Of a DNA stretch of 64,000 bases, positions 4,062 through 57,536 are shown piece by piece. The translations under genes were made by a program, and so were the position numbers. The notes below the pieces were generated by a model that was not told the origin of the DNA, did not search any database, and saw nothing but the letters and a program-made list of their open reading frames with translations. The stretch's first letter is position 1. The number at the start of each line of letters is the position of its first letter. The stretch spans positions 1,488,001 to 1,552,000 of the forward strand of contig NZ_FYFA01000001.1 in assembly GCF_900188435.1 (NCBI RefSeq), read 5' to 3'. Source of the stretch: Marinobacter sp. es.048 (lineage in GTDB: Bacteria > Pseudomonadota > Gammaproteobacteria > Pseudomonadales > Oleiphilaceae).

Positions 4062-5675
4062 TTATCTTTTGGTTTGAATAATATCGGCGATCTTTTCAGC
4101 AATCATGATCGTCGGGGCGTTGGTGTTTCCACCAATCAAAGTCGGCATGATCGAAGCGTCGACCACTCGCAAACCCTCAAGCCCGTGAACCTTGAGGCTC
4201 GGGTCAACCACGGCCAGATCATCTATGCCCATCTTGCAGGTGCCTACCGGGTGATAGATCGTATCCGCCCGGTCGCGGATGTGGCGTGTCCATTCCTCAT
4301 CACTCATGCCGTCGTGAACGCCGAACATTTCGGATTGGCGGTACGGCGAGAGTGCAGGCCCTTCCAGAATCTCCCGGGTGATTTTTGCGCCTTTGATGAT
4401 TAAGTCCAGGTCGTCTGGATCGGACAGATAATTGGGGTCGATGCCGGGATCCGCCATTGGATCGTCGCTGAGCAGAAAAACGCGTCCCCGGGATTTTGGC
4501 CGCAGGTTGCAGACGTGGCAACTGAAGCCGTGCCCCCAATGCAGTTTACGGGCGTGATCCTCTACGATGGAAACTACGAAGTGCAGCTGCAGGTCCGGTT
4601 TTTCCTCTCGCGGGTCAGATTTCAGGAATGCCGCCCCCTCTGCAAACGGTGAGGCAATCATACCCGTTCCATCCGTTCGCCATTGCAGGGAATGGCGGAG
4701 CATGTTTTTCATGCCCGTTAAACTGAAACCAAAGTTATCGGTATCCGCGGACTTGTAGGCGAGAATGAAGTCCAGATGATCCTGCAGATTGCGCCCGACG
4801 CCCGGCAGCTCGTGGACCATGGGAATACCATGAGGGAGGATGTCGTCGGGGTTTCCCACTCCGGATAGCTGGAGTAACTGCGGGGAGCCGAAGGCGCCCG
4901 CGGAGAGGATCACCTCACGGTTCGCTGAGACTGTATGGGTTTGTCCCTTGAGGCAATACTCAACGCCTGAAGCACGTTTTCCGGTAAACAGAATTCGGGT
5001 CGCACGAGCTCCGGTCACAACCTTGAGGTTGTTGCGCTGTTCCATAATCGGATACAAATACGCCGCAGAGGTAGAGCAGCGTTCACCATTGCGTTCGGTG
5101 TCATGAAACTGAGTAACCTCATAGAGGCCAACGCCCTCATTGTCGCCGGTATTGAAATCGTCGCTTGCGGGATAGCCTCGCTCTTTAGCCGCTTCGATAA
5201 AGGCTTCGGAAATGGGCCTTGGTGATCGCTGTTTGCAAACATGCAGTGGGCCATCGGCCCCGTGATGTTCATTGGACCCGCCTTCATGGCACTCCGCTTT
5301 GCGGAAGTAGGGCAAAACCTCGTCCCATCCCCAGCCGTCGCAACCCAGCTCGGCCCATCTATCATAATCCGCCCTGTGTCCACGCACATACAGCATCGCG
5401 TTGATCAGGCTGGAACCGCCCAGCCCCCTGCCTCTGGGCTGGAATCCGCGACGTCCAGCCAGCTCCCGCTGCTGCTCTGTATTGAACGCCCAGTTATTGA
5501 TCTTGCCATGGCCGGGCATGATCGCGACTACACCAGCTGGTGCGCGGGTCAACAAGTGATCGCCCTTGCCGCCTGCCTCCAGGAGACAGGCGCTGACATC
5601 AGGGTTCTCACTCAATCGCGCCGCCATCACAGCGCCAGCCGATCCGCCACCTACAATGATGTAATCGAAAATCAT
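4062..5675 (-). CDS. GMC-family FAD alcohol dehydrogenase (choline dehydrogenase-like)
   Basis: 537-residue glucose-methanol-choline oxidoreductase using FAD to oxidise an alcohol. The N-terminus has the Rossmann motif VGGGSAGAVMAARLSE; GMC signature 1 (GRGLGGSSLINAMLYVRG) and signature 2 (SAGAFGSPQLLQLSGVG) are clear. The active-site His-Asn pair is visible near the C-terminus (YHPVGTCKMG and GGNTNAPTIMIAEK). ATG 5675 was chosen because it immediately precedes the FAD motif, with GGGGA just upstream; a longer frame reaches 5741. Length fits BetA/AlkJ relatives, but the substrate (choline or an aliphatic alcohol) cannot be decided. The SDR remnant follows in the same direction. Confidence 0.9.
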   Translation of the reverse strand: MIFDYIIVGGGSAGAVMAARLSENPDVSACLLEAGGKGDHLLTRAPAGVVAIMPGHGKINNWAFNTEQQRELAGRRGFQPRGRGLGGSSLINAMLYVRGHRADYDRWAELGCDGWGWDEVLPYFRKAECHEGGSNEHHGADGPLHVCKQRSPRPISEAFIEAAKERGYPASDDFNTGDNEGVGLYEVTQFHDTERNGERCSTSAAYLYPIMEQRNNLKVVTGARATRILFTGKRASGVEYCLKGQTHTVSANREVILSAGAFGSPQLLQLSGVGNPDDILPHGIPMVHELPGVGRNLQDHLDFILAYKSADTDNFGFSLTGMKNMLRHSLQWRTDGTGMIASPFAEGAAFLKSDPREEKPDLQLHFVVSIVEDHARKLHWGHGFSCHVCNLRPKSRGRVFLLSDDPMADPGIDPNYLSDPDDLDLIIKGAKITREILEGPALSPYRQSEMFGVHDGMSDEEWTRHIRDRADTIYHPVGTCKMGIDDLAVVDPSLKVHGLEGLRVVDASIMPTLIGGNTNAPTIMIAEKIADIIQTKR

Positions 5676-5861
5676 ACGGTCCCCAGTTCCTGTTTTTGTT
5701 TTGGCTGTACGCTTTTCTGAGCCAGAAAAGGCAGCAGTCAACGAGATGCAGGATCAAGGTTAGACCATTGCTTGGCGGAGTGCCTCTCAGGGGATGGACA
5801 GACTGCTGAAAGCATAGGATGCTATGCTGATCCGAGAATAAACAACAAAAGAGGATGTGCA

Positions 5862-8613: not shown

Positions 8614-10206
8614 TTGGGTGACATCATCAAAGATGATTATCAGACCGACTACGTGGCGGGTCAGGATAATATCGAGAAATTCGGGTTTGATATCCACAAC
8701 ATTGTTTTCCCGTTAACCGCTATCCTGATCGTTGCTTTTGTTGTCGGAACACTCATTTTTCCTTCGGGTGCAAAGGAATTGCTCGATAGCGCCAAGAATG
8801 GTGCGATCGCTATCTTCGACTGGGGCTTTCTTCTCAGTGCAAATCTGTTTGTTCTGTTCTGCCTGGCCCTGATTTTCATGCCGGTGGGCAAGATCCGGAT
8901 TGGCGGTATTGATGCCAAGCCGGAATTCTCCATGCTTTCCTGGTTTGCCATGCTGTTTGCGGCAGGCATGGGCACAGGGCTGATGTTCTGGTCGGTCGCT
9001 GAGCCAGTTGCCTATTACACCGACTGGTATGGAACGCCTCTTGGCGTTGAGCCTAACACCGCAGAAGGTGCGCGCCTGGCGATGGGTGCAACCATGTATC
9101 ACTGGGGTCTGCATCCCTGGGCTATTTACGCGATTGTCGGACTTTCGCTGTCTTTCTTTGCCTTTAACAAGGGCCTGCCGTTAACCATTCGCTCTGCATT
9201 CTTCCCGATTCTCGGGGATAAGGTCTGGGGCTGGCCCGGTCATGTGATCGATACTGTGTCTGTTCTGGCGACGATTTTTGGTCTTGCGACCTCGCTCGGC
9301 TTTGGCGCCCAGCAGGCCGCATCGGGTATTTCCTATCTGTTTGGTATCGAAGGTGGCCTGAATATTCAGGTGGGTGTGATTGCAGGTGTCACGGCTGTCG
9401 CAACCTTATCGGTAATTCGCGGCATTCACGGCGGTGTCCGGATTTTGAGTAACGCCAACATGGTGATGGCGGGGTTGCTGCTCGTGTTTGTGATGTTTGC
9501 CGGACCCACGCTGGCGGTGTTCCAGTGGCTCTGGGATACGTCGGTGTCCTACGCATCCAACATGTTTGCTCTCAGCAACCCGTTCGGTCGGGAGGAAGAC
9601 ACGACCTGGTTCCATGGCTGGACAGTATTCTACTGGGCCTGGTGGATTTCCTGGTCACCGTTCGTGGGCATGTTTATCGCGCGGGTGTCCCATGGTCGCA
9701 CGGTGCGCGAATTTGTCACCGCCGTGCTGATTATCCCCACGATTATCACACTGTTCTGGATGAGCGCTTTCGGCGGCGGTGCCCTCCACCAGGTTCAGAA
9801 CGACATTGGCGTTTTGGCGTCTGAGGGGCTTACCGAGGTATCGCTGGCGATGTTCCAGGCGCTTGAGAACATTTCATTGTCGGGGATTACATCGTTCATC
9901 GGGATCACTCTGGTGTTGACCTTCTTCGTGACCTCCTCGGATTCCGGTTCACTGGTGATCGATAGCATCACCTCAGGTGGTAAGACTGACGCCCCGAAGG
10001 CACAGCGGATTTTCTGGGCGGTTATTGAAGGTTCGATTGCCGGGGTGCTGCTGTTTGTAGGCGGTAAAGAAGCGCTGGGCGCGCTGCAGGCCGGCGCCCT
10101 GAGTGTTGGGCTGCCCTTTACTCTGGTGCTGTTGGTGATGATGTACAGTCTGTTCAAAGGCCTTCATCACGAGCGCCGCTTGCTGATTGCCGAGGGCAAG
10201 ATGTGA
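8614..10206 (+). CDS. BCCT-family glycine betaine/choline-type transporter
   Basis: 530-residue inner-membrane transporter of the betaine/carnitine/choline family with about 12 membrane segments. It has the glycine stretch AAGMGTGLMFWSVAEP and the intact aromatic substrate box FYWAWWISWSPFVGMF, which in BetP and relatives cages the trimethylammonium group. Import is probably Na+- or H+-coupled. The start is TTG at 8614, eight bases after AAAGGAG; no closer ATG fits. Long regulatory cytoplasmic tails are absent, so direct osmosensing of the BetP kind is not indicated. A strong terminator follows at 10235. Confidence 0.93.
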   Translation: MGDIIKDDYQTDYVAGQDNIEKFGFDIHNIVFPLTAILIVAFVVGTLIFPSGAKELLDSAKNGAIAIFDWGFLLSANLFVLFCLALIFMPVGKIRIGGIDAKPEFSMLSWFAMLFAAGMGTGLMFWSVAEPVAYYTDWYGTPLGVEPNTAEGARLAMGATMYHWGLHPWAIYAIVGLSLSFFAFNKGLPLTIRSAFFPILGDKVWGWPGHVIDTVSVLATIFGLATSLGFGAQQAASGISYLFGIEGGLNIQVGVIAGVTAVATLSVIRGIHGGVRILSNANMVMAGLLLVFVMFAGPTLAVFQWLWDTSVSYASNMFALSNPFGREEDTTWFHGWTVFYWAWWISWSPFVGMFIARVSHGRTVREFVTAVLIIPTIITLFWMSAFGGGALHQVQNDIGVLASEGLTEVSLAMFQALENISLSGITSFIGITLVLTFFVTSSDSGSLVIDSITSGGKTDAPKAQRIFWAVIEGSIAGVLLFVGGKEALGALQAGALSVGLPFTLVLLVMMYSLFKGLHHERRLLIAEGKM

Positions 10207-24766: not shown

Positions 24767-24882
24767 AGCGACTGCGGGCGCTCTGACGTTTTTAGTCGAC
24801 TGAATGTCGTATTGGTTCCTCCCGGAAACCTGAAAGACGACCACATTAGGGCTATCGACAACCCGGTAAGAGGGAGATAGCA

Positions 24883-26244
24883 ATGGCTGTTAAATTCGAG
24901 CAAGCACTTCTGGATTATCCACAACAAAGGGCGGGTGCTGCGCGCCTGCCCGAGAGCGTCGACCAGTCTGATCGACGCGTTCCGATCAACCTTCGTCAAT
25001 CTGGACCCACGCCGGTGGAGATGCTGATTTCCACACGGGTCCGCAAGTCGCCGTATTGGCATCTGGCCTATGAGGCCGGCTGTTGGCGAGCGACAGTCTA
25101 CAACCGTATGTACCATCCCCGGGGCTATGTCCGCCCTGAAGATGGTGGTGCCATGCTGGAGTATGAGTCGCTGATAAACGACGTCACCATGTGGAACGTG
25201 GCGGTTGAACGCCAGATTCAGGTCAAAGGCCCGGATGCCGAGCGGTTCGTGAATTACGTGATCACCCGGGACGCCACCAAGATCAAGCCCATGCGTGGCA
25301 AATACGTGATCCTGTGCAACGAAGAGGGTGGCATCATCAATGATCCTGTTTTGCTGCGGGTCGCCGAAGATGAATTCTGGTTCTCGCTTTCTGACAGCGA
25401 TCTGGAGCTCTGGATGCGGGGCGTGAACATCGGGATGGGCTTCAATGTCACCATCGCGGAAATCGATGTGGCGCCTCTTCAGATCCAGGGCCCGAAGTCG
25501 GAAGCGCTGATGGCGGATCTTTTTGGCGAGGCGGTTCGTGAGATTCCCTATTACGGGCTGATGGAAGGCCAGGTGGCGGGGCACGACGTGATCGTTTCGC
25601 AGACTGGCTTCACTGGCGAGAAGGGTTATGAAATCTACCTCAAGGATGCCACCAAATACGCTGAAGACCTTTGGTATACCGTGCTGGCCGCTGGCGAAGC
25701 CCACAACCTCAGGGTAATTGCGCCTGCCCACCATCGAAGGATTGCCGCCGGCATTTTGTCCTGGGGCCAGGATGTGGATCAGGAAACCCTTCCGTTCCAG
25801 TGCAACCTGGCCTACCAAGTGCCGCGCAATAAGGAGGTCGATTACATCGGCAAACAAAAGCTTGAGCAGGTCCGGGAGCAGATGGAGGCCGGTCGCCCGC
25901 CGTTCAGCCACATTATGGTGGGTATCCGGTTTGGTGGAGGCAAGGTGACTGATTATGCCAACGATTTCTGGCTGATTAGCGGCCCGGATGGTGGTGACCC
26001 GGAGGGCTACGTGACATCACCGTGGTATTCACCCGAACTTGAGACAAACATTGCGTTGGCCTATGTGCCACTTGATCTTAGCTCTGTTGGCACACGCCTG
26101 ACGGTTCATCTTCCGGTGGAGTACTCCGCTGCGGACGGCTCAACGGCTGTGGAGGCGGAGGTTGTCGAAATACCCTTCCGGCCTTCGGTGAATGCCAACG
26201 CCCGCGAAAGGGCCAGAGCCAAGGGTATCGACTTCGCCGACTGA
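24883..26244 (+). CDS. GcvT-family THF-dependent demethylase (DmdA-like)
   Basis: 453-residue aminomethyltransferase-fold protein. Blocks such as WNVAVERQIQVKGPDAERF, GGIINDPVLLRVAEDEFW, APLQIQGPKSE and SQTGFTGEKGYEIYL resemble DmdA, which moves a methyl from dimethylsulfoniopropionate to tetrahydrofolate, more than glycine-cleavage T protein. It is about 80 residues longer than DmdA, with an N-terminal extension and a longer C-terminal domain, so the substrate is open (DMSP, a betaine or another N/S-methyl compound). ATG 24883 follows AGAGGGAGA. A MetF-like gene starts 59 bases downstream and fhs follows, a set that would oxidise methyl-THF to formate. Confidence 0.82.
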   Translation: MAVKFEQALLDYPQQRAGAARLPESVDQSDRRVPINLRQSGPTPVEMLISTRVRKSPYWHLAYEAGCWRATVYNRMYHPRGYVRPEDGGAMLEYESLINDVTMWNVAVERQIQVKGPDAERFVNYVITRDATKIKPMRGKYVILCNEEGGIINDPVLLRVAEDEFWFSLSDSDLELWMRGVNIGMGFNVTIAEIDVAPLQIQGPKSEALMADLFGEAVREIPYYGLMEGQVAGHDVIVSQTGFTGEKGYEIYLKDATKYAEDLWYTVLAAGEAHNLRVIAPAHHRRIAAGILSWGQDVDQETLPFQCNLAYQVPRNKEVDYIGKQKLEQVREQMEAGRPPFSHIMVGIRFGGGKVTDYANDFWLISGPDGGDPEGYVTSPWYSPELETNIALAYVPLDLSSVGTRLTVHLPVEYSAADGSTAVEAEVVEIPFRPSVNANARERARAKGIDFAD

Positions 26245-26303
26245 CAGGGCCAAGAGAGGCGGCGTTGGCAATGGCCGGGTAAAAACCGTTAAGGGTGGTA
26301 GGC

Positions 26304-27218
26304 ATGACACAGGCAAAGAGAGGTCAGGCAGTCGCCTGGCCCGGGGAAGAGTCAGAAGCCAGGTTTCGAAAACTGGTGCGCTCCGCTTCCATCGAGGCAA
26401 CACCCCGTCAGATCCTGACAACAGAGCATCTGCCAGACATGCTGCCAGCGGGTACCTGCGTGTACGTACCTTTCCTGCCAAAGGGTCATTTTCCCGATAC
26501 GCTGGCAGCCTGTCGTCGCCTGTTGGATCTGGGTATGCAGCCAGTACCCCATGTGCCTGCCCGAATGGCCCAGAGCCGAGGGCAACTGCAGGACTGGCTG
26601 GCTCAACTGGATGAGAGCCAGGTCGACCGTTTTCTGCTGATCGCGGGCGACAGCGATGCGGTTGCCGGTCCTTTTCCCGATACCCTCGCCGTACTCGAAT
26701 CCGGAGTGTTGTCCGAGTTCCAATTCCATGGGATAGGCGTGGCCGCTCACCCGGATGGCCATCCGATGGCGGATCGAGCAACGCTGGCGCAGGCATTAAG
26801 CATCAAGCGTGAGTACGCCCGTACGACAGCGACAAGACTCTGGGTCGTTACCCAGTTTACCTTTGACGCCAACCTGGTCACTGACTGGCTAAGCGGGTTG
26901 GGCGGCATTTTTGAGGAGGTGCCCGTCTACATCGGTGTGGCGGGTCCGACACGGATCAAAACGCTCATCGCTTATGCGGCCATGTGTGGGGTAGGCGCAT
27001 CCGCCCGCATGCTGCTCCGTAGACCCGGCAGCGCGCGCAGGCTGGGCGCCTGGAAACCCGACGATATGGTCCGGGCATTGGCTCAGTATTGCCTGGAAAA
27101 CCCGGAGACCCTGCTGCGGGGCATCCATCTGTTTCCGTTCGGAGGGCTGCGTCAGTCGGCTCAGTGGATTCAGGAACACAGCGGGTCCTTCGAGGACCAG
27201 AGGGAGGCAGTGTCATGA
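26304..27218 (+). CDS. Divergent methylenetetrahydrofolate reductase (MetF-like)
   Basis: 304-residue flavoprotein-fold relative of MetF. Family positions are recognisable although diverged: SIEATP (the catalytic Glu segment), [15 protein letters not shown] (the folate-contacting Asp), [15 protein letters not shown] and [22 protein letters not shown]. Biosynthetic MetF makes 5-methyl-THF; placed after a methyltransferase and before fhs, this copy more plausibly runs in the oxidising direction, as proposed for MetF2 of chloromethane degraders. ATG 26304 follows AAGGGTGG. Its stop overlaps the fhs start by four bases (ATGA). Confidence 0.82.
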
Positions 27219-28951
27219 GTCTTCAGTACAGTCAACTGACATCCGAAGCGCCAGCGTCCTCAGATTTTCCGCCGCCGGGCACGCCGGATATCGAGATCGC
27301 CCGTTCGGTCCAGCCCCAGTCTATTCTTCTGCTGGCACAGCAGCGTTTCGGTTTGCCGGCGGAGAGCCTGGTGCCCTTTGGCCATTACAAAGCAAAGCTG
27401 GACATGGCTTATGTGGATACGTCTGCATCGGCACCCAGAGGCAAACTGGTCCTGGTGACTGCGATTACACCAACCCCTGCAGGGGAAGGAAAGACGACAA
27501 CCAGTGTGGGACTGAACGACGGCTTCAACCGGTTAGGCATGCGCTCTTCCGTTTGTTTGCGAGAGCCTTCCCTGGGTCCCTGCTTCGGTATGAAGGGCGG
27601 GGCAGCTGGCGGAGGCCGGGCTCAGGTGATTCCAATGGAAGATATCAACCTGCATTTCAATGGTGACTTCCATGCCATCACCAGTGCTCATAACCTGCTG
27701 GCGTCACTGATCGATAACCATATTCACTGGGGCAATGAAGCCGGTCTGGATCCGCGTTATATAAGTTGGCGTAGAGTCATGGATATAACCGACCGGTCAC
27801 TGCGAAACATGGTCTGTGGCCTGGGCGGGGCGGCGCACGGCGTGCCCCGTGAGACCGGGTTCGATATCACCGTTTCTTCCGAAATCATGGCGATTCTGTG
27901 CCTGGCAGACGGGCGTGCGGACCTGAAGCAGCGGTTGGGGAATATCATCATTGGACGGCGTCCTGACATGTCACCGGTGACGGTTCGTGACCTTGGCGTG
28001 GAGGGCTCGCTCACTGTTTTATTGAAAGAGGCGCTGCAGCCGAACCTGGTGCAGAGCCTGGAGCACAACCCCGTGTTCATCCATGGCGGGCCCTTTGCCA
28101 ATATCGCTCATGGGTGCAATTCCGTTACGGCGACCCGTGCTGCCTTGGCCCTGAACGACGTGGTGGTGACCGAGGCTGGCTTCGGCGCCGATCTGGGCGC
28201 GGAAAAGTTCATTGATATCAAATGCCGGCACACGGGATTGCGCCCGGATGCGGCCGTGGTGGTCTGCACCATTCGGGCTCTTAAAATGCAGGGTGGTATT
28301 CCCCGCAGCCAACTTGCCATTCCTGACCTGGCTGCGCTGCGCGCAGGGGCTGCCAATCTTGAGCGGCATATCCGTAACCTGCAGCAATTTGGACTGACCC
28401 CGGTGGTGTGCATCAACCGTTTCCCGGAAGACACGGAAGAGGAGATGGCACTGGTCCAGTCCATCAGCGAGGAGTTGGGCGTGCGCGCAGTGCCCGCTGA
28501 TCACTGGGCAAGCGGTGGTGAGGGCGCCACTGAACTGGCCAGGGCTGTGCTTGACCAGATGGATGAGGGCAGACCAGAGGTGGAATTTCTCTATGAAGAC
28601 AGCCTGCCCCTGGCGGACAAGATTCGCACCGTCGCTACCCGCATTTACCATGCCGGAAGCGTGGAGTTTACAACGGTTGCCAAACGGCAGCTGGAGGAAT
28701 ATGAAAGCCTGGGTTTTGGTCACCTTCCCGTGTGCATCGCCAAGACCCAGTACAGCTTCTCGGTGGACTCGTCGGTGAAGGGCGCCCCATCCGGGCATAT
28801 GTTGCCAGTGAGGGAAATGCGCCTGGCGGCCGGAGCCGGCTTCGTGGTGGCGGTCTGTGGCGACATCATGACCATGCCAGGGCTGCCACGGCGGCCTGCC
28901 GCTCTGGACATTGCGCTGGATGAGAATGGCCTTGTAGTGGGGTTAACCTGA
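27215..28951 (+). CDS. fhs: Formate-tetrahydrofolate ligase
   Basis: 578-residue 10-formyl-THF synthetase. The P-loop [12 protein letters not shown] lies at 85-96; [37 protein letters not shown] and the C-terminal [19 protein letters not shown] are family hallmarks. It links formate, ATP and THF reversibly; in this operon reversal would release formate and gain ATP from methyl groups. ATG 27215 is coupled to the MetF-like gene by ATGA. The 3' end overlaps the convergent regulator by nine bases. No folD or purU is in the window, so the methylene-to-formyl step must be supplied elsewhere. Confidence 0.95.
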
Positions 28952-30067
28952 GACGGTGCGCCCGGGGTAATCCTCAAAAGTCCCGTAGGTTGGCTCGGTT
29001 CGCGACCGTTTCAGGGCTTGCAGGGATGCAGACGGCAAGCTGGCCGCGGGGTCTTTGAGGAGACCCTCGGCATCAGTCGGAGCCAAGGCTTCCATCCGTT
29101 CATACTTGGGAGCGCGTCCCATGGTCTTTCTGTAGCAGCGACTGAAGTGGGTTGCGGAAATAAAGCCGCACAGGGAGGCGATTTCCACGATCGAACAGGA
29201 AGTCTGTTTGAGCAGCCGACGCGCCCGGTTTAGCCTTACTCTCAGGTAATAGCGTGACGGCGTACACCCCATATGTTTCAGAAACAGCCGTTCCAGTTGT
29301 CGGCGAGAGATACCAGCCAGCATTGCCAATTCCTGCAGTTCAATCGGCTCTTCGATATTGGCTTCCATCAGTTGCGCCGCTTCCGCCAGTTTGGGTTGTG
29401 CTTTGGCAAGGCCCGGATGCATTGGCATAGGTTGCTGTTCCCGGTCTTCCCGGATCCGATCACAAACAAACATGTGGGAGATCGCATTGCTGAGCTCCTG
29501 GCCATGGCGACGTCCCAGGAAGCTGAGCATCATGTGCATTGGTACGGTGCCACCGGTACAGGTCATACGCTCACGGTCGACCGTAAACAGGTGGTTGTTG
29601 GTCTGAACCCGTGGAAAGTCTTCCTGCATGGCTTCCAGACATTCCCAGTGGGCACTGCAGGCGTAGCCGTCCAGTAACCCTGCACTGGCCAGCACATAGG
29701 CGCCGGTACAGACCGCTCCCATAACGATATGACGCCGCGCCATCTGTTTCAGCCACTGGATTTCATGGCGTGAAAAACTGCGGGTGACATTAATGCCGGC
29801 AACAACAATGACCAGATCGAAGCTGTGTTCTTCCCGGATTCCGGCGTCCGGAACCATGGTGATACCGTCGCTGGCTCGGGCATAGCCGCCATCGGCCGTG
29901 AGTAGCTTCCAGGAATAGAGCTCCGTACCCGCCATTTGGTTGGCTACGCGCAGGGGTTCAACGGCAGTGGCAAGCGCAATCAGGGTAAAGTTGTCGATCA
30001 GAAGAAAGCCAACGCGATAGGGCTGCGCGATGCACCGGTCTGTTTGCGAGCCAATATCAATGGTCAT
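28943..30067 (-). CDS. GlxA/AraC-family regulator, GbdR-like
   Basis: 374-residue regulator with an N-terminal DJ-1/PfpI (class I glutamine amidotransferase-like) domain and a C-terminal AraC-type double helix-turn-helix. The nucleophile-elbow Cys is present (GAVCTGAY, C120). The DNA-binding end reads [28 protein letters not shown] and [14 protein letters not shown]. The overall layout is that of GbdR and CdhR, activators of glycine betaine and carnitine catabolism in Pseudomonas. ATG 30067 follows GGGGG. Position between fhs and the dimethylglycine-dehydrogenase-like gene supports control of this cluster. Confidence 0.9.
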
Positions 30068-30155
30068 AAGCAACCCCCGTTTGCCCTGTCTGGGCAAGTG
30101 GCAACGGCAACTGCCCTTATGACTTGAACCGCCACCACATCATGAACACTAGCTG

Positions 30156-30174
30156 TTGCACTCGGGTCGTGCAA
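30156..30174. promoter_or_regulatory. Candidate operator TTGCAC-N7-GTGCAA
   Basis: A perfect six-base inverted repeat with seven-base spacer (TTGCAC 30156-30161, GTGCAA 30169-30174) lies about 90 bases upstream of the GbdR-like gene, in the 215-base gap after the dehydrogenase-like gene. Spacing of about 13 bases between half-site centres suits a dimeric regulator. The bound protein is unknown. Confidence 0.4.
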
Positions 30175-30282
30175 TAAGTGATCAGTTCCACTCCGATTCC
30201 ATTGTAGGGCGTGCTCAGAATAGCAATGGTCCATAAGCGACATTAAGCATGCCGGAATAGCCCCCACGCGACCTGTCTTCCG

Positions 30283-32853
30283 TCAGGGTTTGACCCGCTC
30301 GTTGTCCGGATCAAACAGTGCCCGGTAACCCACCGCTTCGATTCGGATAGGGTAGTGCTCCTGGAAGTATTCCAGGGTCAGCTCACGCCCTTCCTGGGCG
30401 TACTCGGCGGGGATGTAACCCAGCAGGATGATCTTCCCCACTGAAGGCCCCCACGACACACTGGTGTTGTAAGAGCGGCGACCGAGGCTATCCACCAGCA
30501 CTTCACCGGTTTGTGGGGCCAGAATGGGCCATTGGCCGATCGGGTAGCGCAGAATGCCGTTGGCATCCCGGTGCTCGGTCATGGTCATGGTGCACAGGTA
30601 GGCCGCCTGCCGGGGCCGCTCCCGCTGCTCCAGATACGCGGCCTTGCCATGGAAATCGGCTTCCTTGACCTTGGGCCGTTGCAGTCCGGCTTCGTAGAGA
30701 TTGTATTCCGTTTCCAGGTCCACGTTCTGCAGTCGCAGGCTCTTCTCCAGGCGACGGGTATTGGCGTAGGTTTCGATGCCTACCGGCGTAACGCCGGCAT
30801 CGTAGAGCAGGTCCCAGATTCTCAGGCCATAGCTGAAGGGGAAATAGAGCTCCCAGCCCTGCTCGCCAACGTAGGAAATCCGGAAGGCCCAGACCGGGAC
30901 CCCTCGAATGTTCAGTTCCCGGGCGGTGGCAAACGGGAAACTGTCCGCGGACAACTGGTCCGGGTCGGTAACGAACTGGGCCAATGTCTCCCGGGCCTTT
31001 GGCCCCCAGAGGCCGAGGGTCGCCAGTTCGTCCGTTCGGTCATGCACCTGGATGTTGTCCAGCCCCTTCTCCCGGGCCATGCGGGTGATCCAGCAATAGT
31101 CCCGATGGCCGGTGTCGCCGCCGCAGACAACCCGATAATCTTGCACGCCCCGCCGAATGATGGTCAGGTCGGAACGCACGCCCCCGCGCTCGTCGAGGAA
31201 ATGGGTGTAGACACCTTTGCCGTTGGGCGTGGTACCGCCGACTTTGGCAACCGACAGATATTCCAGCAGCGCCTCCGCGTTGTCACCGGAAATGTCGAAA
31301 ATGGCGAAATGGGAGAGGTTGATCATGCCCACGGATTCGCTCATTTCAAGCTGTTCGGCGCTGGATACCTCCCAGAAGTGTCGGGCGTCCCATTCGTGTT
31401 CCCGCACGGGGATCCGGTCGCGATATTTCGCCAGGAGGGTGGACTCGTTGGCCGCATAACCGTGAGCACGCTCCCAGCCGGCGGCCTCCATGAAGTAAGC
31501 ACCCAGGCCAACTTCCCGCAGGTAAAACGGGCTGGTTCGCATCTTGCGACCGGTAAGGTATGGCTCACGGGGGTGAACCGCCGGGGTGTAGATCTTCTTG
31601 GCGGTCTCGTAGCAGCGGTTGTAGACGAAGTCGGGCGTTTTCTGCAGTGGGTAGTGGCGGGCGATGTCGATACTGTGGGGATCCATCTCCGGTGAGCCGT
31701 GGGTCATCCAGTCGGCCAGCACCTTGCCCGCACCCGGGCCGTCCTTCACCCAGACCGCCTCGCAGAACCACAGATTACGGACTTCCGGGGATTCGCCCAT
31801 GAGTGAACCGCCGTCCGGCGTTACAGAGAGCAGGCCATTGAACGAGTGCTTCTCTTCCCACCCCAGTTCGCCAAGGATCGGCGTCATCTCAATGGCCTTT
31901 TCGTAGGCGTCCATCACCTGGTCCAAGGAAAGATCCCGCATTGATGGCGACATCCGCGCATCACCGGGCTCCGCAATGGCGCCGGGGTAAACGAGCCGTG
32001 GGTTCTCTGCTTCGTAATAGCCCCACTCGATACGACCGCCTTCGGTGGTGGTTGGGTCGCCGGTGTCCCGCACATAGGCGGAATTGCCCTGGTCGCGGAA
32101 CAGCGGATAGACGATCTGCTTGCCGGTGCCATTGAGCTCCTCGTAGGGGCCGAAAAACAGTAAAGGATGCTCCAGCGGCATCAGTGGCAGGGGGGCGTTG
32201 GCAGTGTGAGCCATCAAGGGGCCCCAGATGCCCATCGAAAGCACCACATATTCAGTCTGAATGTATCCCTTTTCGGTCTCAACGCCGCGAACCTGACCGT
32301 CCTGGACATCAATGCGGATGGCAGGTGTATAGGCAAAAGCCTGCAGTTTACCGGTGGCCACAGCTTCTTCCACCAGGTCGCCGGCCACTCTCTGGGAGCG
32401 GGGCACCACCAGTCCGGCATCCGGGTCCCACATGGCGCCCTGGATCTGACTTTCGTCGAGCAGTGGAAACAGTTCCTTTGCCTGTTTGGGCGATATTATG
32501 CTCACGTTGGTACCGAACGCTTTCCCGGACCCCACCTTGCGCCGAAGCTCGTCCATACGTTCGTCGTCATCAGAGCGGGCCACTTCCATTCCACCGCATT
32601 TCACGTAATTGCCGCGCTTTTCATAAAACGCCTGGCTGTATTTGGTGGTGTATATGTTCAACTTGTCGTGGGAAGTGGTGAAGCAGAAATCCGAAGCGTG
32701 GGATGTGGACCCGATATCGGTGGGAATGGCGGACTTTTCCAGGCCCACGATGTCATCCCAGCCTTGTTCGATCAGGTGGTGCGCTACCGACGAGCCAACG
32801 ATACCGCCCTGGCCAATGATTACGACTTTCGCTCGTTTCGGTAGTTGTGCCAT
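30283..32853 (-). CDS. FAD-dependent dimethylglycine dehydrogenase-like enzyme with GcvT domains
   Basis: 856-residue fusion. An N-terminal DAO-type FAD domain has GQGGIVG at 14-20 and a His at 52 in GSTSHAS, the position that holds covalent FAD in dimethylglycine and sarcosine dehydrogenases. A middle FAO_M-type linker (about 390-440) and C-terminal GcvT plus GcvT_C domains (about 450-850; IETYANTRRLEKSLRLQNVD) would capture the released methyl as 5,10-methylene-THF. The actual amine substrate is not determined by sequence. ATG 32853 follows GGGGAAG. The GbdR-like regulator lies downstream on the same strand; the THF operon faces them. Confidence 0.88.
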   Translation of the reverse strand: MAQLPKRAKVVIIGQGGIVGSSVAHHLIEQGWDDIVGLEKSAIPTDIGSTSHASDFCFTTSHDKLNIYTTKYSQAFYEKRGNYVKCGGMEVARSDDDERMDELRRKVGSGKAFGTNVSIISPKQAKELFPLLDESQIQGAMWDPDAGLVVPRSQRVAGDLVEEAVATGKLQAFAYTPAIRIDVQDGQVRGVETEKGYIQTEYVVLSMGIWGPLMAHTANAPLPLMPLEHPLLFFGPYEELNGTGKQIVYPLFRDQGNSAYVRDTGDPTTTEGGRIEWGYYEAENPRLVYPGAIAEPGDARMSPSMRDLSLDQVMDAYEKAIEMTPILGELGWEEKHSFNGLLSVTPDGGSLMGESPEVRNLWFCEAVWVKDGPGAGKVLADWMTHGSPEMDPHSIDIARHYPLQKTPDFVYNRCYETAKKIYTPAVHPREPYLTGRKMRTSPFYLREVGLGAYFMEAAGWERAHGYAANESTLLAKYRDRIPVREHEWDARHFWEVSSAEQLEMSESVGMINLSHFAIFDISGDNAEALLEYLSVAKVGGTTPNGKGVYTHFLDERGGVRSDLTIIRRGVQDYRVVCGGDTGHRDYCWITRMAREKGLDNIQVHDRTDELATLGLWGPKARETLAQFVTDPDQLSADSFPFATARELNIRGVPVWAFRISYVGEQGWELYFPFSYGLRIWDLLYDAGVTPVGIETYANTRRLEKSLRLQNVDLETEYNLYEAGLQRPKVKEADFHGKAAYLEQRERPRQAAYLCTMTMTEHRDANGILRYPIGQWPILAPQTGEVLVDSLGRRSYNTSVSWGPSVGKIILLGYIPAEYAQEGRELTLEYFQEHYPIRIEAVGYRALFDPDNERVKP

Positions 32854-33002
32854 TTTTCTTCCCCTTTGCCTGCAATGAACGTCACTGCGCTGCCGCAACG
32901 GACAGGGCCTTGATTCAATGTGGCTCTAATTGGTCAGGGGAGGTAAATCCAATACGACACCGAGTCGTCCAAAAACGGCAAGGCCGGGAATGTCGGGCTG
33001 CC

Positions 33003-33323: not shown

Positions 33324-34403
33324 ATGCCGAATATCGCGGTTGTCCCAAACACCACATCGTCCCGCGACATACTCTTGCTCCGGCTATCTATTCTGGTTGG
33401 CGGCGTACTGATTGCCCTATTCATGATTGGTGACTTGCAGCTGATCCCCCGGGAACTGGCAGGTGCCTATATCACCAACAGGGTTCTGGTCCAGCTTCCA
33501 ATTCTCGCCAGCCTGCTCGCCGTCACCTTTTTTTCGCAATTCCGAAATTTTGCGCAAACAGCTTTTCTGGGGACAGTTCTTGCCCTCACATACGCTAATT
33601 ACTACGTTATCCATGTTTCCTGGGCGCAGGCGGGGTTCAGTTTTCCTTATGAGGGAACTTTGCTTTACGCTTTTTTCGGTTTTTTCGTGTTCGGAATGAA
33701 ATTCTATTACGCGTTAACCGCGATGCTGCTCAGTTCGCTTGGATTTATTGGCTTGATGCTGCTGGATCCCGTATACGGCGAGCGAACCTGGATGAACGCT
33801 GGATTCGTGGTTGGTTCGCTGTTCATTGGAGTGATTGGCAGGCACAGGATCGATCGGCTATTGGGTCAGCTTGAGGATGCCAATGAGCAGCTGGTTGCAC
33901 TGAGCACCGTTGATGGGCTCACCGATCTGCTCAATCGCCGGGCACTGATGAGTGAATCCGAGCGTTTGTTCGCCCTGCAGCGGCGCTCCAATCAGCGACT
34001 CGCTGTGTTCATGATGGATCTGGATCATTTCAAGCAGTTCAACGACCACTATGGCCACCAGCAGGGTGATCAGGCTATTCGACTGCAGGCTGACATCATG
34101 AGGCAGGTATTCAAACGCCAGACGGATATCCTCGGGCGCTATGGTGGCGAGGAATTCATGGCTGTGATCGAGGGCGAGCATTCCGACCGGTTTGAATTCC
34201 TTGCTGCAGCGGTTCTGAAGCAATGGCAGGAGCGTGCAGTGCCGAACGAGGATAGCCCCGATAGCAAGGTACTCAGCTGTTCCATCGGAATCTGTCAGGG
34301 CCTGGCCAGCGAGTTTGATTCCATCGATGACATGATTCGAAGGGCCGATGAAGCGCTGTACCGCGCGAAAAAGCAGGGCCGTGCCAGATACGTCATCGCC
34401 TAG
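33324..34403 (+). CDS. Membrane-bound diguanylate cyclase
   Basis: 359 residues. About six hydrophobic segments (20-185) form an integral membrane sensor region, followed by a short coiled linker (LLGQLEDANEQLVALS) and a GGDEF domain with active-site GGEEF (LGRYGGEEFMAV), DGLTDLLNRRAL and the Mg-binding MDLDHFKQFND. It should make cyclic di-GMP. No RxxD inhibitory site precedes GGEEF (TDILGR is there instead), so simple product inhibition is not indicated. ATG 33324 is preferred over the TTG at 33300. Its stop overlaps the convergent EutA-like gene by four bases. Confidence 0.92.
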   Translation: MPNIAVVPNTTSSRDILLLRLSILVGGVLIALFMIGDLQLIPRELAGAYITNRVLVQLPILASLLAVTFFSQFRNFAQTAFLGTVLALTYANYYVIHVSWAQAGFSFPYEGTLLYAFFGFFVFGMKFYYALTAMLLSSLGFIGLMLLDPVYGERTWMNAGFVVGSLFIGVIGRHRIDRLLGQLEDANEQLVALSTVDGLTDLLNRRALMSESERLFALQRRSNQRLAVFMMDLDHFKQFNDHYGHQQGDQAIRLQADIMRQVFKRQTDILGRYGGEEFMAVIEGEHSDRFEFLAAAVLKQWQERAVPNEDSPDSKVLSCSIGICQGLASEFDSIDDMIRRADEALYRAKKQGRARYVIA

Positions 34404-35143
34404 TCTTCGGGCATGTGTTCGAACAGACGGCCGAGCTCCGGTTGGGGAGCGAGCTTGCCGCATAGTCGCAAAGCCTCCCAGAAACTGACCTGATTGGCGG
34501 TCAGCGCCGGCTGCCCGATGGCTTGCTCCAGATCGTTGAGCCAGGCCGCAGAGTGGAGCGCAGTGTCTGGAATCAGCAGGGCATCGGCTTCTTTCCTGAC
34601 GTTGGCCAAAGCAAATTCGATAACCGCGCCTTTCTCAAGCAACCCTACTTCCGCCGCTGTGATGATGCCGCGGCTGGCCAGATGCACAACTTCGATATCG
34701 AAATGATTGAGGAACGCCCGGAATCGCTGTGCGACGTCATCGGGGTAGGTGGCAGCGATGGCCACCCGTTTGGCGCCAATGGCTTTCACTGCTCTGGCGA
34801 ATGCCATTGCCGTTGTGGAAGCGGGTACGCCCAGCAGTTTCTCGAGCGTGTCAATCTGCTGGCGAATACCGTCGAGGCCGAGCACAAAGCTCGCACTGGT
34901 CGAGGTCCATATCACCGACTCAATCCCTGAGTTAGCCAGTTTTTCTGCACCTTTTGAGAGACGGCTGATGCTGCCCATCTCACTGAGGGCTTCAACGGAA
35001 TGGGCGTCCTCCAGGAATTCGGTGTGGATGAGAGTTACCTGCGCCGGAGGCTTCACCATGGAACCCATCAGGGGGTAATCATCTTCGGCCGCATGGCCCG
35101 GGTAGAGAAATCCAAGCCTGGCTGGAGGCGGTGTATGGCTCAT
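34400..35143 (-). CDS. Maleate isomerase/EutA-like Asp/Glu racemase-superfamily protein
   Basis: 247-residue protein of the maleate isomerase / arylmalonate decarboxylase group, which includes EutA of ectoine-utilisation clusters. Recognisable parts are the start ARLGFLYPGHAAEDDYP, the first active loop WTSTSASF (79-86) and the C-terminal SFWEALRLCG. Normal enzymes carry one catalytic Cys in each of two loops; here both positions lack Cys (TSTS at 80-83, and PDTA at 192-195), and the only Cys is C228. It therefore may not be a standard isomerase. ATG 35143 follows GGGAG. Confidence 0.75.
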   Translation of the reverse strand: MSHTPPPARLGFLYPGHAAEDDYPLMGSMVKPPAQVTLIHTEFLEDAHSVEALSEMGSISRLSKGAEKLANSGIESVIWTSTSASFVLGLDGIRQQIDTLEKLLGVPASTTAMAFARAVKAIGAKRVAIAATYPDDVAQRFRAFLNHFDIEVVHLASRGIITAAEVGLLEKGAVIEFALANVRKEADALLIPDTALHSAAWLNDLEQAIGQPALTANQVSFWEALRLCGKLAPQPELGRLFEHMPED

Positions 35144-35238
35144 TGATCGCTCCCTCACTGGCAGAGATTGACGTGCCTGTACAATAGACCAAAACTGGCA
35201 ACTCGGCAGTCTTTGGAGATTAGCGATGGAGAGTAGCG

Positions 35239-39945: not shown

Positions 39946-40851
39946 ATGAAATCTGTTGCACTTCTCGACGGCGGCCTGGGCCAGGAAATCTATCGCAGGG
40001 CCATGAACGTTACGTCACTGCTCTGGTCAGTGGCGGTAATGCGGGAGCAGCCGGACGTTGTTACCGATGTCCATGCTGATTTTATCCGGGCGGGGGCCCG
40101 TACCCTGACGCTGAACACCTATGCCGCAACGCCCACGCGACTGGCCAGAGAAGGCCTTGGTGACGAGATCGGAGCCATACATCAGCGAGCGTTCGACGTA
40201 CTGGAACGTGCCATCGAGTTAACGGGCGCCGACGTCGATATCGCCGGTTGCCTTCCACCGCTGGTTGGTAGCTATCGAAGCCAGCCTGCCCGGACCTTTG
40301 AGGATTTGAAGTCGGAGTTCGACATCCTCGTTGAACTGCAGGGTGGGGCAGATGTCTTCCTCATCGAAACCATGACGAACTCGCTCGAGGCGAAAGCTGC
40401 CTGTGCCGCCGCCGCTGAATCAGGCAAGCCCTTCGGGGTGGCGTTCCGGCTGGAAACGGATGGCAAGCTTCGGTCCGGGGAAACGCTTGCAGAGGCTGTC
40501 GAAGCGGTTAAGCCGTTCGGGCCAACAGCGGTCATGCTCAATTGCTGTGATCCGGAGGTGATCTCTGAGGCAATGCCTGAGCTGGCCGGGCTGTTCCCAT
40601 GCACTGGCGGTTACGCCAACGCGTTCAAAACCGTTGAGCCTATGGCCAGTGGAGCTCTGGTGGATGAACTGGAAGCGAGGCCGGACGTTTCACCCGGGTT
40701 GTATGCGCTGCAGGTGCAACAGTGGTTGGAAGATGGAGCGGGCGTTGTGGGCGGCTGTTGTGAAATTACGCCCGAGCACATCAGCCATCTGGCCGATGTG
40801 CTGACAGGCGAGTATAACCTGGTACGGTTCTCAGAATTGGCCCACAGTTAG
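39946..40851 (+). CDS. Homocysteine S-methyltransferase family protein
   Basis: 301-residue zinc methyltransferase of the MmuM/BHMT family. LLDGGLGQEI at the start, TLNTYAATP, VMLNCCDPE and GVVGGCCEI carry the expected zinc cysteines (one in LNCC, two in GGCC). It should transfer a methyl from a donor such as S-methylmethionine or a betaine to a thiol acceptor; donor not determinable. It begins ten bases after the alkylsulfatase stop, so is probably co-transcribed. Its end overlaps the convergent DUF1127 gene by four bases. Confidence 0.88.
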   Translation: MKSVALLDGGLGQEIYRRAMNVTSLLWSVAVMREQPDVVTDVHADFIRAGARTLTLNTYAATPTRLAREGLGDEIGAIHQRAFDVLERAIELTGADVDIAGCLPPLVGSYRSQPARTFEDLKSEFDILVELQGGADVFLIETMTNSLEAKAACAAAAESGKPFGVAFRLETDGKLRSGETLAEAVEAVKPFGPTAVMLNCCDPEVISEAMPELAGLFPCTGGYANAFKTVEPMASGALVDELEARPDVSPGLYALQVQQWLEDGAGVVGGCCEITPEHISHLADVLTGEYNLVRFSELAHS

Positions 40852-55373: not shown

Positions 55374-55391
55374 CCGCGCTGATCAGCGCGG
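55374..55391. repeat. Perfect 18-base palindrome at the ovoA stop
   Basis: CCGCGCTGATCAGCGCGG is an uninterrupted palindrome covering the last codons and stop of ovoA. No T-run follows, so it is not a plain terminator; an RNA hairpin stabilising the 3' end or a chance feature is possible. Confidence 0.5.
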
Positions 55392-57536
55392 CAACCGCTC
55401 CCAGATAGTCACTTCCGACAGGGTATGCTGGAACTTGTGTTGGGTTTCGCGGATAACGAAAGGCACCTTTCTCGGCTCACGGACTAACCGGAAATGCTGT
55501 AAAAGGTGTTCTTTCAGGCCATCCAGCGTGGTGTGATTCTCACCATCCTTCTTGAAACCGCCAATCCACTCTTCTTTCGGCGTATGTTCTTCCAGCCAGG
55601 TGTAGGGAGAGGCAATAACCAACAGGCCACCGTTGTTAATGCGCTCGTGAATTCTGTCCAGGAAGCGCCTTGGCCGGTAGAGACGATCAATCAGGTTGGC
55701 CGCCAGAACAAGGTCGTAGCCCGAGTACTGCGGTTTCAGGTTACAGGCATCTCCCTGGTAGAAGCTTACCCGTTCTGAGCATTCCTCAAGGCCCAGCTCT
55801 TTGAGCGTCCGGGTGTGATAACTGACCAGTTCGCCTTCCTCTGCAAGCGCATACCGAATGGAACCCTGCTCGGCCATTTCTGCGCCCAGCCTGATAAAGT
55901 TGGCCGAGAAATCCACGCCTTCCACGTCATTGAATTCTCTTGCCAACTCAAAGCTGGAACGGCCGCAGGCGCAGCCCAGGTCGAGTGCTTTTCCGGTGGG
56001 CTTGCCCTTCCTCGCGTCCAGGGCAAGATCCGCCAGGGTTTTCGGGAAGTTCTCCACACCAAACCAGGTGTCACCGAAGTGGAATTCCGCGTATTCAGTC
56101 AGTAACCGGTCGCTTTCATAGTAAGCATTGGGTTGCACCGCCTCGCTTTCAGAGGCGATGTAGCGGAAGCCTGCGTGCTGGAAGAAGTGCCTCCGGAAGG
56201 CGTAACGGGCCGATAATCGGGCTTCGTTGCCGCAGGAAATCCACGAACCGCCTTTGATGAGGTTGTGTTGCCCGTCAAACGTCGGCGTTGTGAAATCGTC
56301 GTACAGCGGATGCACCTTGAAATTATCGAACGGATAGGTCGGTGTTTCCGTCCACTGCCAGACGTTGCCGACAACGTCGAACCACTGACCATGCCGGAAC
56401 CGGGTAACCGGGCACGACGATGCTCCATGGTCAAGATGCAGGTTGGCGTTGGAGGGATCATGGCCTACTTCTTCGATGCCGGCCTCCGCACACAAGCGGT
56501 ACCACTCGTCTTCTGTAGGCAGGCGGACGGGCTGGCCGGTTTGCTCCCGTTTCCACTCGCAAAAGGCTTTAGCCTCGTGGTAGTTGACTTCCACGGGCCA
56601 ATCCCAGGGCATCTCGACTTCTTCGGTCATCAGGCGCAGATGCCATCCATTCTGCCAGCGCCAGAAGGTAGGATGCCTTGCCTTGGCGAATTGTCGCCAG
56701 GCACAACCCTCCTCATTCCAGAATCGATCTTCCTGGTAACCACCGGCTTCAACAAACTCGAGGAATTCCTGGTTACTAACCAGATACTGACTGGCCCTGA
56801 ACTCATCGACATGGGCCTCATGTTCGCCGTATTCATTGTCCCAGCCGTAGAAGGCGTCGTCGTAGGGTTTTCCGGTGGACACTTTGCCAGCCGGCACGGT
56901 GACCAGTTCGTTTTCCGGTGCTTCCCCGGTCCCACGAATCGGTGCCCATTCTGGCTGCGGGCGTACCTTTGCGAGGTCGTGCTGGCGGATCAGCACGGAC
57001 GACGTCTCAAGATGGATGCGTTCATGCTCAACACCCATAACGATCGGCCACCAGGGGTTCTCCCAGTTGATCGGCAGGCTGAGCGGGAGTGATTCAGTCA
57101 GTTCCAACACGGTGGCCCGGACTTTGGCACGGTAATCCATGACTTCGGCAACGGTGGGCCAGTCGTAATGATCTTCGTCCAGATCGTCCCAGCTCATCTC
57201 ATCAACGCCGACCGCGAAAATCGATTCCATGTGCGGATCGATACGTTCGGGGAGGAGTTTGGCCAGTACCAGTTTGTTGACGAAGAAAGTCGCGGTATGG
57301 CCGAGGTAGAAAATGAGAGGGTGTCTCAGGGGGATCGACTTCTGGAAATAGCCTGAATCATCGGCGAGGCAGTCGAAAAGGCGCGTGTAGGTGTCAAAGG
57401 TGTTGGTGAAGTAGGAAGCGATTTCGGCGCGTTTGTCCTCCTCGGACCCGACGCTGAGATCCGGCGTTCTGAGGAGGCCGGCTCCGGGGTTGAGGGCTCG
57501 GGTGGGGGACTGCGCTTCCGGTATTGGCATTGTCAT
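55383..57536 (-). CDS. ovoA: 5-histidylcysteine sulfoxide synthase / mercaptohistidine methyltransferase (ovothiol synthesis)
   Basis: 717-residue bifunctional iron enzyme. An N-terminal DinB-like domain gives the HX3HXE iron site (H171, H175, E177 in EHERIHLET); a formylglycine-generating-like sulfoxide synthase domain follows (about 205-445; VSNQEFLEFVEAGGYQ, GNVWQWTETP, SGWxx-like GGSWISCGNEAR); the C-terminal part is a SAM methyltransferase (DLGCACGRSSFELA) that N-methylates the imidazole. This order distinguishes OvoA from EgtB. It makes the precursor of ovothiol, a redox thiol; the PLP lyase OvoB is not in the window. ATG 57536. Confidence 0.92.
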   Translation of the reverse strand: MTMPIPEAQSPTRALNPGAGLLRTPDLSVGSEEDKRAEIASYFTNTFDTYTRLFDCLADDSGYFQKSIPLRHPLIFYLGHTATFFVNKLVLAKLLPERIDPHMESIFAVGVDEMSWDDLDEDHYDWPTVAEVMDYRAKVRATVLELTESLPLSLPINWENPWWPIVMGVEHERIHLETSSVLIRQHDLAKVRPQPEWAPIRGTGEAPENELVTVPAGKVSTGKPYDDAFYGWDNEYGEHEAHVDEFRASQYLVSNQEFLEFVEAGGYQEDRFWNEEGCAWRQFAKARHPTFWRWQNGWHLRLMTEEVEMPWDWPVEVNYHEAKAFCEWKREQTGQPVRLPTEDEWYRLCAEAGIEEVGHDPSNANLHLDHGASSCPVTRFRHGQWFDVVGNVWQWTETPTYPFDNFKVHPLYDDFTTPTFDGQHNLIKGGSWISCGNEARLSARYAFRRHFFQHAGFRYIASESEAVQPNAYYESDRLLTEYAEFHFGDTWFGVENFPKTLADLALDARKGKPTGKALDLGCACGRSSFELAREFNDVEGVDFSANFIRLGAEMAEQGSIRYALAEEGELVSYHTRTLKELGLEECSERVSFYQGDACNLKPQYSGYDLVLAANLIDRLYRPRRFLDRIHERINNGGLLVIASPYTWLEEHTPKEEWIGGFKKDGENHTTLDGLKEHLLQHFRLVREPRKVPFVIRETQHKFQHTLSEVTIWERLPR

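Follow-up and report, generated by a model that had tools for sequence, protein, structure and literature searches.

The block of five genes at positions 24883 to 32853 of a 64,000-nt stretch of the 4.06-Mb genome of Marinobacter sp. es.048 (the window) is headed by a gene for a DmdA-like protein of the GcvT family, here called O1, and raises the question of which methylated compound O1 demethylates and where the methyl groups go. On balance we lean towards the view that the block is a regulon through which the cell exploits glycine betaine (GBT) for its methyl groups and its glycine skeleton, with GBT as the probable substrate of O1. One operator lies before both transcription units of the block, which is the new result of this analysis. 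The features are as follows.

24883-26244, plus strand: O1, 453 amino acids, DmdA-like (Pfam GCV_T, 141 bits, and GCV_T_C)
26304 (ATG)-27218, plus strand: MetF-like gene, methylene-tetrahydrofolate reductase family (best PDB match 7xg9)
27215-28951, plus strand: fhs, formate-tetrahydrofolate ligase (NCBIfam 841.5 bits, cut-off 652; PDB 7c11, E 2.7e-214)
28943-30097, minus strand: GbdR-type AraC regulator (Pfam DJ-1/PfpI and HTH_18; NCBIfam NF052371 GbdR, 497.5 bits, cut-off 480)
ATG at 32853 down to 30283, minus strand: fusion of FAD and GcvT domains (FAD+GcvT), dimethylglycine oxidase/dehydrogenase-like (Pfam DAO, FAO_M, GCV_T, GCV_T_C)
24784..24815, plus strand: 32-bp operator, copy of the O1 operon (half-sites TGACGT and TGTCGT, 15 bp between; 67 bases to the ATG)
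32949..32980, minus strand: 32-bp operator, copy of the FAD+GcvT gene (half-sites TGCCGT and TGTCGT, 15 bp between; 95 bases to the ATG)

O1, the metF-like gene and fhs form one plus-strand operon, with a gap of 59 bases between the first two and an ATGA overlap between the last two, and face the genes for the GbdR homologue and the FAD+GcvT protein on the minus strand. Profile and PDB searches with the open reading frames of the window bore out the five genes, their positions and both junctions as the first-pass annotation had given them. The listed start of the GbdR homologue is TTG, and the real start perhaps lies slightly further inside. In the whole genome only two places carry a GcvT domain, O1 and the FAD+GcvT gene.

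A common operator precedes both transcription units

An alignment of the window with 12 Marinobacter loci revealed a 32-bp block, TGcCGtTTTTgG-N9-TGTCGTATTGG, that is common to the regions upstream of O1 and of the FAD+GcvT gene. A search of the window at up to two mismatches finds two copies and no more, each with 0 mismatches, whereas 100 shuffles give none (chance expectation 0.00). A strict regular expression finds the block at the FAD+GcvT promoter in 13/13 of the aligned sequences and at the O1 promoter in 11/13; a weight matrix recovers the remaining two O1-promoter sites with scores of 30.9 and 22.9 (the latter in locus L019), the maximum in 10 mononucleotide shuffles being 11.0. Together, regular expression and matrix place the operator at both promoters in 12/12 fetched Marinobacter loci. 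The matrix had been trained on the 24 regular-expression sites, and its scores at the loci used for training therefore give no independent confirmation. Weaker matrix sites precede O1 in loci L017 (19.2) and L035 (12.5).

The half-sites have a CG core, the second following the first after 21 bp (6 + 15). For CdhR, half-sites GGTCGC with a 15-bp spacer have been described, the sites of GbdR being called very similar, and the CG of the distal GbdR half-site GCCGC is needed for binding (PMC5806209). Because the 6-15-6 spacing and the CG core match these descriptions, the block is most simply read as a candidate GbdR-type operator: two CG half-sites, a 15-bp spacer (the figure for CdhR) and a position at the expected target promoters are all present in the sequence. 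GbdR responds to GBT and to dimethylglycine (DMG) (PMC12093977).

O1 and its partner enzymes

Against the NCBIfam DmdA model NF009133 O1 scores 269.5 bits (cut-off 410; across 274 genomes of the class, the DmdA places that pass it reach 430-542 bits), and by this curated score it was dropped as a DmdA candidate. Two other assignments were likewise dropped: that O1 is the GcvT of a glycine cleavage system, since it falls under the curated GcvT cut-off (160.9 bits, cut-off 300) and no match to the partner GcvP is found in its own genome, and that it is an O-demethylase of the LigM or DesA type, since it is far under both curated cut-offs (31.5 bits against 580 and 45.4 bits against 800, respectively). 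The nearest solved structure is the DmdA 3tfh, both by sequence and by the fold of an AlphaFold model (pLDDT 69.5, with residues 1-62 and 292-312 low), which we used solely for naming that fold. In a FastTree phylogeny of 53 sequences one clade with a support of 0.958 holds 29/29 O1 rows; this clade adjoins DmdA and DmdA-like proteins and is separate from GcvT.

O1 shares with DmdA the folate Glu/Tyr pair and the Asp of the NDP motif, and Glu250, Tyr252 and Asp154 of O1 are kept in 30/30 aligned rows; O1 also has a conserved N-terminal stretch. All 29 O1 rows have Phe243 at a site that is Trp in 9/11 and Tyr in 2/11 of the over-cut-off DmdAs tested, so that Trp is not strict in DmdA either. 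A Trp at this site has been called key for dimethylsulfoniopropionate (DMSP) (PMC7487153), the match between the alignment number of that paper and the numbering of 3tfh being ours. Judged by these sequence comparisons O1 is related to DmdA yet is not DmdA: of the initial label "DmdA-like" the kinship stands, and identity with DmdA itself falls with the score below the cut-off and the separate clade.

The MetF-like protein has no Pfam match at 0.001 and reaches only 28.6 bits against the NCBIfam MetF model (cut-off 293.7). Among solved structures it comes closest to 7xg9, a methylene-tetrahydrofolate reductase (E 1.8e-47), which we take to be the enzyme of Sphingobium lignivorans SYK-6. An ordinary MetF is also encoded elsewhere in the genome, and the window protein is 24% identical to it over 224 columns. 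We propose that the MetF-like enzyme of the window works as an oxidase of methyl-tetrahydrofolate. For the FAD+GcvT protein the best PDB match is dimethylglycine oxidase 1pj5 (E 5.7e-111). In the alignment, read by eye, H48, H225, Y259 and D552 of 1pj5 correspond to H67, H244, Y275 and D577 of the 871-amino-acid open reading frame, all four positions by which we judged a dimethylglycine oxidase or dehydrogenase thus being identical. His48 presumably links the FAD, and His225, Tyr259 and Asp552 are presumably catalytic; D552A is named in the title of structure 3gsi.

Distribution and neighbourhoods of O1

When a protein search scored the 7,994 candidates with the most words in common, 4,645 proved to be related to some degree, GcvT-type proteins among them. 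Locus counts given below refer to the best 80 of at least 588 relatives from a genome scan. These 80 loci, 68-96% identical to O1, come from Gamma- and Alphaproteobacteria, Actinobacteria, Gemmatimonadota, Nitrospinae and Latescibacterota, and the named genomes closest to es.048 by O1 are those of Marinobacter. Plasmids add 16 haloarchaeal O1 records at 53-63% identity, and also 7 bacterial records at 38-42% that are DmdA-like, as is the relative in a Phaeobacter region. In the class of one HIMB59-type locus (385 genomes), 36 genomes match O1 at 1e-70, 18 of them at 64% identity or more, one at 55% and the rest at 37-43%.

Of 120 genomes of the genus, 38 carry O1 and 39 carry the FAD+GcvT gene, and all 38 O1 genomes have both; the 39th genome, which has no O1 match, is 82% complete and in 250 contigs. 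Conserved co-occurrence had been set beforehand as the test of the proposal, in the first-pass annotation, that the block is a tetrahydrofolate (THF)-linked demethylation module with its own regulator. The 38/38 co-occurrence in the genus and the neighbourhoods in several phyla answer that test positively, and with the common operator they back the proposal.

Each neighbour label rests on phmmer similarity to a single reference ("SoxB" being a DAO protein beside SoxA by Pfam), and the HIMB59-type and Actinobacteria groups are a grouping made here, partly by gene order. A MetF homologue lies within 3 kb of O1 in 59/80 loci and a FAD+GcvT gene within 10 kb in 59/80; both are near in 47/80 and at least one in 71/80. 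MetF, Fhs, FAD+GcvT and GbdR are found in 12/12 Marinobacter loci, and MetF and FAD+GcvT in 18/18 HIMB59-type loci, while the Actinobacteria have each of the two in 7/10 loci and the other groups each in 22/40. Fhs within 6 kb is seen in 27/80 loci (Marinobacter 12/12, HIMB59-type 0/18, Actinobacteria 1/10, others 14/40). SoxA homologues occur within 10 kb in 28/80 loci, 18 of them HIMB59-type, as do SoxB homologues (28/80). A serine dehydratase gene is inserted between gbdR and the FAD+GcvT gene in 7 of the 12 fetched Marinobacter loci, one product having been identified by PDB 4rqo (E 6.8e-167) and the others by similarity to it. Arthrobacter H14 has glyA-folD directly before O1.

Three of four haloarchaeal plasmid regions (L087, L088 and L089) have metF and threonine ammonia-lyase near O1, together with two FAD oxidoreductases and a ring-hydroxylating oxygenase in L087, BCCT, folD and fhs and no FAD oxidoreductase in the stretch in L088, and glyA and a FAD oxidoreductase in L089; the region of the fourth, L090, has none of metF, threonine ammonia-lyase, FAD oxidoreductase, BCCT, folD, fhs and glyA. 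In two genomes of 1.2-1.3 Mb O1 (64-65% identical) overlaps metF, and one of them carries in this stretch a FAD+GcvT gene with an ETF gene after it. In the 1.2-Mb genome (L133, 5002-18355) genes for an M19 dipeptidase, DUF3726, a Rieske oxygenase, an APS-kinase-like protein, an enoyl-CoA hydratase, FAD+GcvT and ETF flank O1-metF.

Some genomes hold a separate DmdA-like protein alongside O1 (G023, G067, G121, G730, G734 and others). In G121, a genome of the genus, this second family (L098, 1824-4041) is 41% identical to O1, scores 377 bits against the DmdA model, keeps the Trp absent from O1 and adjoins purU (formyl-THF deformylase); G023 and G067 carry similar proteins. In a Geminicoccaceae locus (L039, 13966-14820) and a Pseudomonadales locus (L026, 13912-14742), fhs and the FAD+GcvT gene have a gene for a protein of 276-284 amino acids between them; at the limits used, this protein had no match in NCBIfam (both), in the PDB (L039) or in Pfam (L026). 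PDB searches with three neighbours left unnamed returned no match, and Pfam searches of many neighbours gave unrelated genes. In one Pseudomonadales locus of the 80 an MTTB gene lies beside the FAD+GcvT gene.

A proposed route from glycine betaine to formate

Combining the operator, the residues and the neighbourhoods, we suggest the following scheme: (i) O1 would take one methyl group off the quaternary nitrogen of GBT and pass it to THF, so that DMG and 5-methyl-THF arise with neither oxygen nor cobalamin; (ii) the MetF-like enzyme, judging by its family and by SYK-6, would convert methyl-THF to methylene-THF; (iii) FolD, which is not encoded in the operon (the genome was not searched for FolD), would convert methylene-THF to formyl-THF; (iv) Fhs, on the same grounds as the MetF-like enzyme, would convert formyl-THF to formate and ATP; (v) the FAD+GcvT enzyme, given its catalytic residues, would take DMG, and perhaps sarcosine, to methylene-THF; and (vi) the GbdR homologue, as the likely binding protein, would activate both transcription units via the operator observed before them.

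The product of DmdA is 5-methyl-THF (PMC7487153). For O1 a methyl-THF product fits better than methylene-THF because MetF is often beside O1 and methyl-THF oxidation needs MetF, and the grouping of O1 in the tree with the DmdA lineage and not with GcvT points the same way. GlyA and serine dehydratase complete betaine catabolism (PMC12093977). The dimethylglycine oxidase residues, the effectors of GbdR and this role of GlyA and serine dehydratase together suggest that GBT is used via O1 and then DMG via the FAD enzyme. The suggestion that the block oxidises methyl groups of a methylated osmolyte is thereby narrowed: the evidence points towards the series from GBT to glycine and away from DMSP.

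Other betaine routes and competing explanations

A scarcity of other known betaine routes also favours GBT as the substrate of O1. The es.048 genome has no GbcA above the cut-off (best 106 bits, cut-off 670) and no MTTB-family match, and GbcA above the cut-off is absent from 34/38 O1 genomes of the genus. In Rhodospira (G144) and Arthrobacter H14 (G160) O1 is present, while over-cut-off GbcA, MTTB and stand-alone homocysteine methyltransferase are all absent.

Several observations weigh against GBT as the substrate. Two stand-alone frames of homocysteine methyltransferase size are present in the es.048 genome, one of them inside the window. GbcA occurs in 4/38 genomes of the genus with O1 and in 5/82 without it, and a second set of O1 genomes has it above the cut-off in 8/35; the idea that O1 excludes GbcA was tested on both sets of counts and fails. 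Seven of the 8 GbcA genomes (three of the Halomonas group, two Enterovibrio, Grimontia and one Oceanospirillaceae metagenome-assembled genome) have no FAD+GcvT gene within 10 kb of O1, and because GbcA is present O1 is not the sole GBT route in those genomes. GbcA-like proteins scoring 385-414 bits are encoded in a further six O1 genomes, all from Actinobacteria, and MTTB is found in 3/36 O1 genomes. MetF was not found within 3 kb of O1 in 21/80 loci, of which 12 have a FAD+GcvT gene near, possibly with a divergent or distant MetF, and 9 have neither, six of these nine having less than 3.5 kb of contig on one side. Rieske oxygenase genes lie near O1 in Haloarcula marismortui and beside it in the two genomes of 1.2-1.3 Mb. 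Finally, no substrate pocket is readable in the O1 model at its pLDDT of 69.5.

GbcA, MTTB, the missing FAD neighbours and the Rieske genes are the reasons why a different onium substrate has to be weighed. O1 might demethylate proline betaine, a carnitine-type betaine, homarine or another sulfonium compound, for example, and the nearby GBT genes would then serve another branch. This fits the O1-MetF pairs, with or without Fhs, that lack a near FAD+GcvT gene in Halomonas-group and Vibrionaceae genomes already holding GbcA, and the Rieske, enoyl-CoA hydratase and other genes beside O1 in a small alphaproteobacterial genome. However, the GbdR-type operator is common to the O1 operon and the dimethylglycine oxidase-like gene, a glycine skeleton is suggested by serine dehydratase, glyA and SoxA among the neighbours, and an identity to O1 of 53 to 96% from haloarchaea to Marinobacter suggests a single substrate. 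We regard this alternative as unlikely, though as one to be taken seriously, and favor GBT.

Alternatively, the module could be chiefly anabolic, supplying methyl-THF for methionine and one-carbon (C1) units via MetF and Fhs to a cell without a glycine cleavage system. The es.048 genome indeed lacks a GcvP match, the 120 genomes of the genus contain no full-length GcvP (five partial matches of 19-26 bits, one just above the cut-off), and the LigM-S6MTHFR pair of SYK-6 is said to replace glycine cleavage (PMC12585457). Nevertheless, genomes of the genus without O1 also lack GcvP, so that O1 is not needed for that purpose, and the links to serine dehydratase, GbdR and a FAD enzyme are catabolic. 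We consider this very unlikely as the main function; C1 supply may be a side benefit of a catabolic module. Least probable of all is that O1 is the DMSP demethylase DmdA, or acts at a later step of DMSP breakdown as speculated for SAR11_1265 (see below), since, although DmdA is its nearest solved relative and shares the folate and NDP residues, O1 stays below the DmdA cut-off, has Phe in place of the DMSP-site Trp in every row, has no acyl-CoA gene seen within the window block and in some genomes coexists with a separate DmdA-like protein.

Further genes of the window

The homocysteine S-methyltransferase of the window (39946-40851, plus strand; 301 amino acids, PF02574; no NCBIfam family at E 1e-40) is a possible alternative sink for betaine methyl groups. 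The window also encodes two BCCT transporters on the plus strand, at 8614-10206 (Pfam 585.9 bits; 511.8 bits against a betaine-uptake equivalog cut-off of 650) and 58975-60531 (474.7 bits), and the window scan found no operator copy before either gene. A GMC oxidoreductase (4062-5741, minus strand) scores 610.9 in the choline dehydrogenase subfamily (cut-off 605) and 512.9 against the BetA equivalog (cut-off 732.1). At 55383-57536 on the minus strand FGE-sulfatase, DinB_2 and methyltransferase domains are joined in one protein, presumably resembling a fusion of ergothioneine-type EgtB and EgtD. An AMDase/EutA-like gene (34400-35158, minus strand; EutA 112 bits, cut-off 318) adjoins a GGDEF gene outside the conserved block.

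Comparison with known systems

The combination of genes had been presented as one not recognised among characterised systems, and this does not hold for the three-gene core: ligM-metF-ligH of S. lignivorans SYK-6 has the same architecture and acts on aromatic methoxyl groups (PMC6888825), and its MetF homologue is said to oxidise methyl-THF (PMC12585457). Both operons run from a GcvT-fold THF demethylase through MetF to a formyl-THF synthetase in equal order, the LigM-type logic thus being found in the window, the window MetF is nearest to 7xg9, and both hosts lack glycine cleavage. In contrast, O1 is remote from the LigM model, the SYK-6 substrates are aromatic O-methyl groups and the SYK-6 regulator is DesR. 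Nor is the pairing of such a gene with metF new, since SAR11_1265 of Ca. Pelagibacter ubique, an aminomethyltransferase (AMT) of unknown substrate close to DmdA, was already noted in 2011 beside metF (SAR11_1264) and was guessed to act in DMSP breakdown on the second DMSP methyl group (PMC3160333); O1 is likened to it as an AMT adjoining metF, by description and not by sequence. DmdA (3tfh) is closest to O1 in sequence and fold, has the same folate Glu/Tyr and Asp and moves an onium methyl group to THF, as we propose for O1; O1 differs in its N-terminal stretch, its own clade, the Phe for the DMSP-site Trp and its neighbours.

Among the routes for GBT, GbcAB-DgcAB-SoxBDAG of Pseudomonas and Vibrio shares with what we propose for the O1 block the control by GbdR (in Pseudomonas) and the logic from GBT via glycine and serine to pyruvate (PMC12093977). 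Unlike the O1 block, it begins with a Rieske oxygenase and formaldehyde, and it has DgcAB where the O1 block has the FAD+GcvT enzyme. MtgBCD of Ruegeria pomeroyi passes a GBT methyl group to THF, as proposed for O1, followed by MetF2 and THF-linked oxidation (PMC12478193), but it is cobalamin-dependent with an MTTB-family subunit, a family without a gene in the es.048 genome. That 2025 paper covers GbcAB, BHMT and MtgBCD for betaine, its main text naming neither GcvT nor DmdA, and it describes the molecular markers of GBT use as still poorly resolved, the cobalamin enzyme filling part of the gap (PMC12478193). Our literature search, which left out most subscription papers and bioRxiv, returned no characterised O1. 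We hold it to be an even question whether O1 is a further GBT route beside these three, i.e. a single-protein GBT:THF methyltransferase that needs no oxygen, cobalamin or homocysteine and has spread horizontally among Proteobacteria, including HIMB59-type ocean bacteria, Actinobacteria, Gemmatimonadota, Nitrospinae and haloarchaea. GBT is an abundant marine solute. If the proposal is correct, O1 would be a gene marker for betaine users and would tie betaine directly to methyl-THF and ATP, and a GcvT-fold route that dispenses with B12 and oxygen would alter the set of genomes regarded as betaine users.

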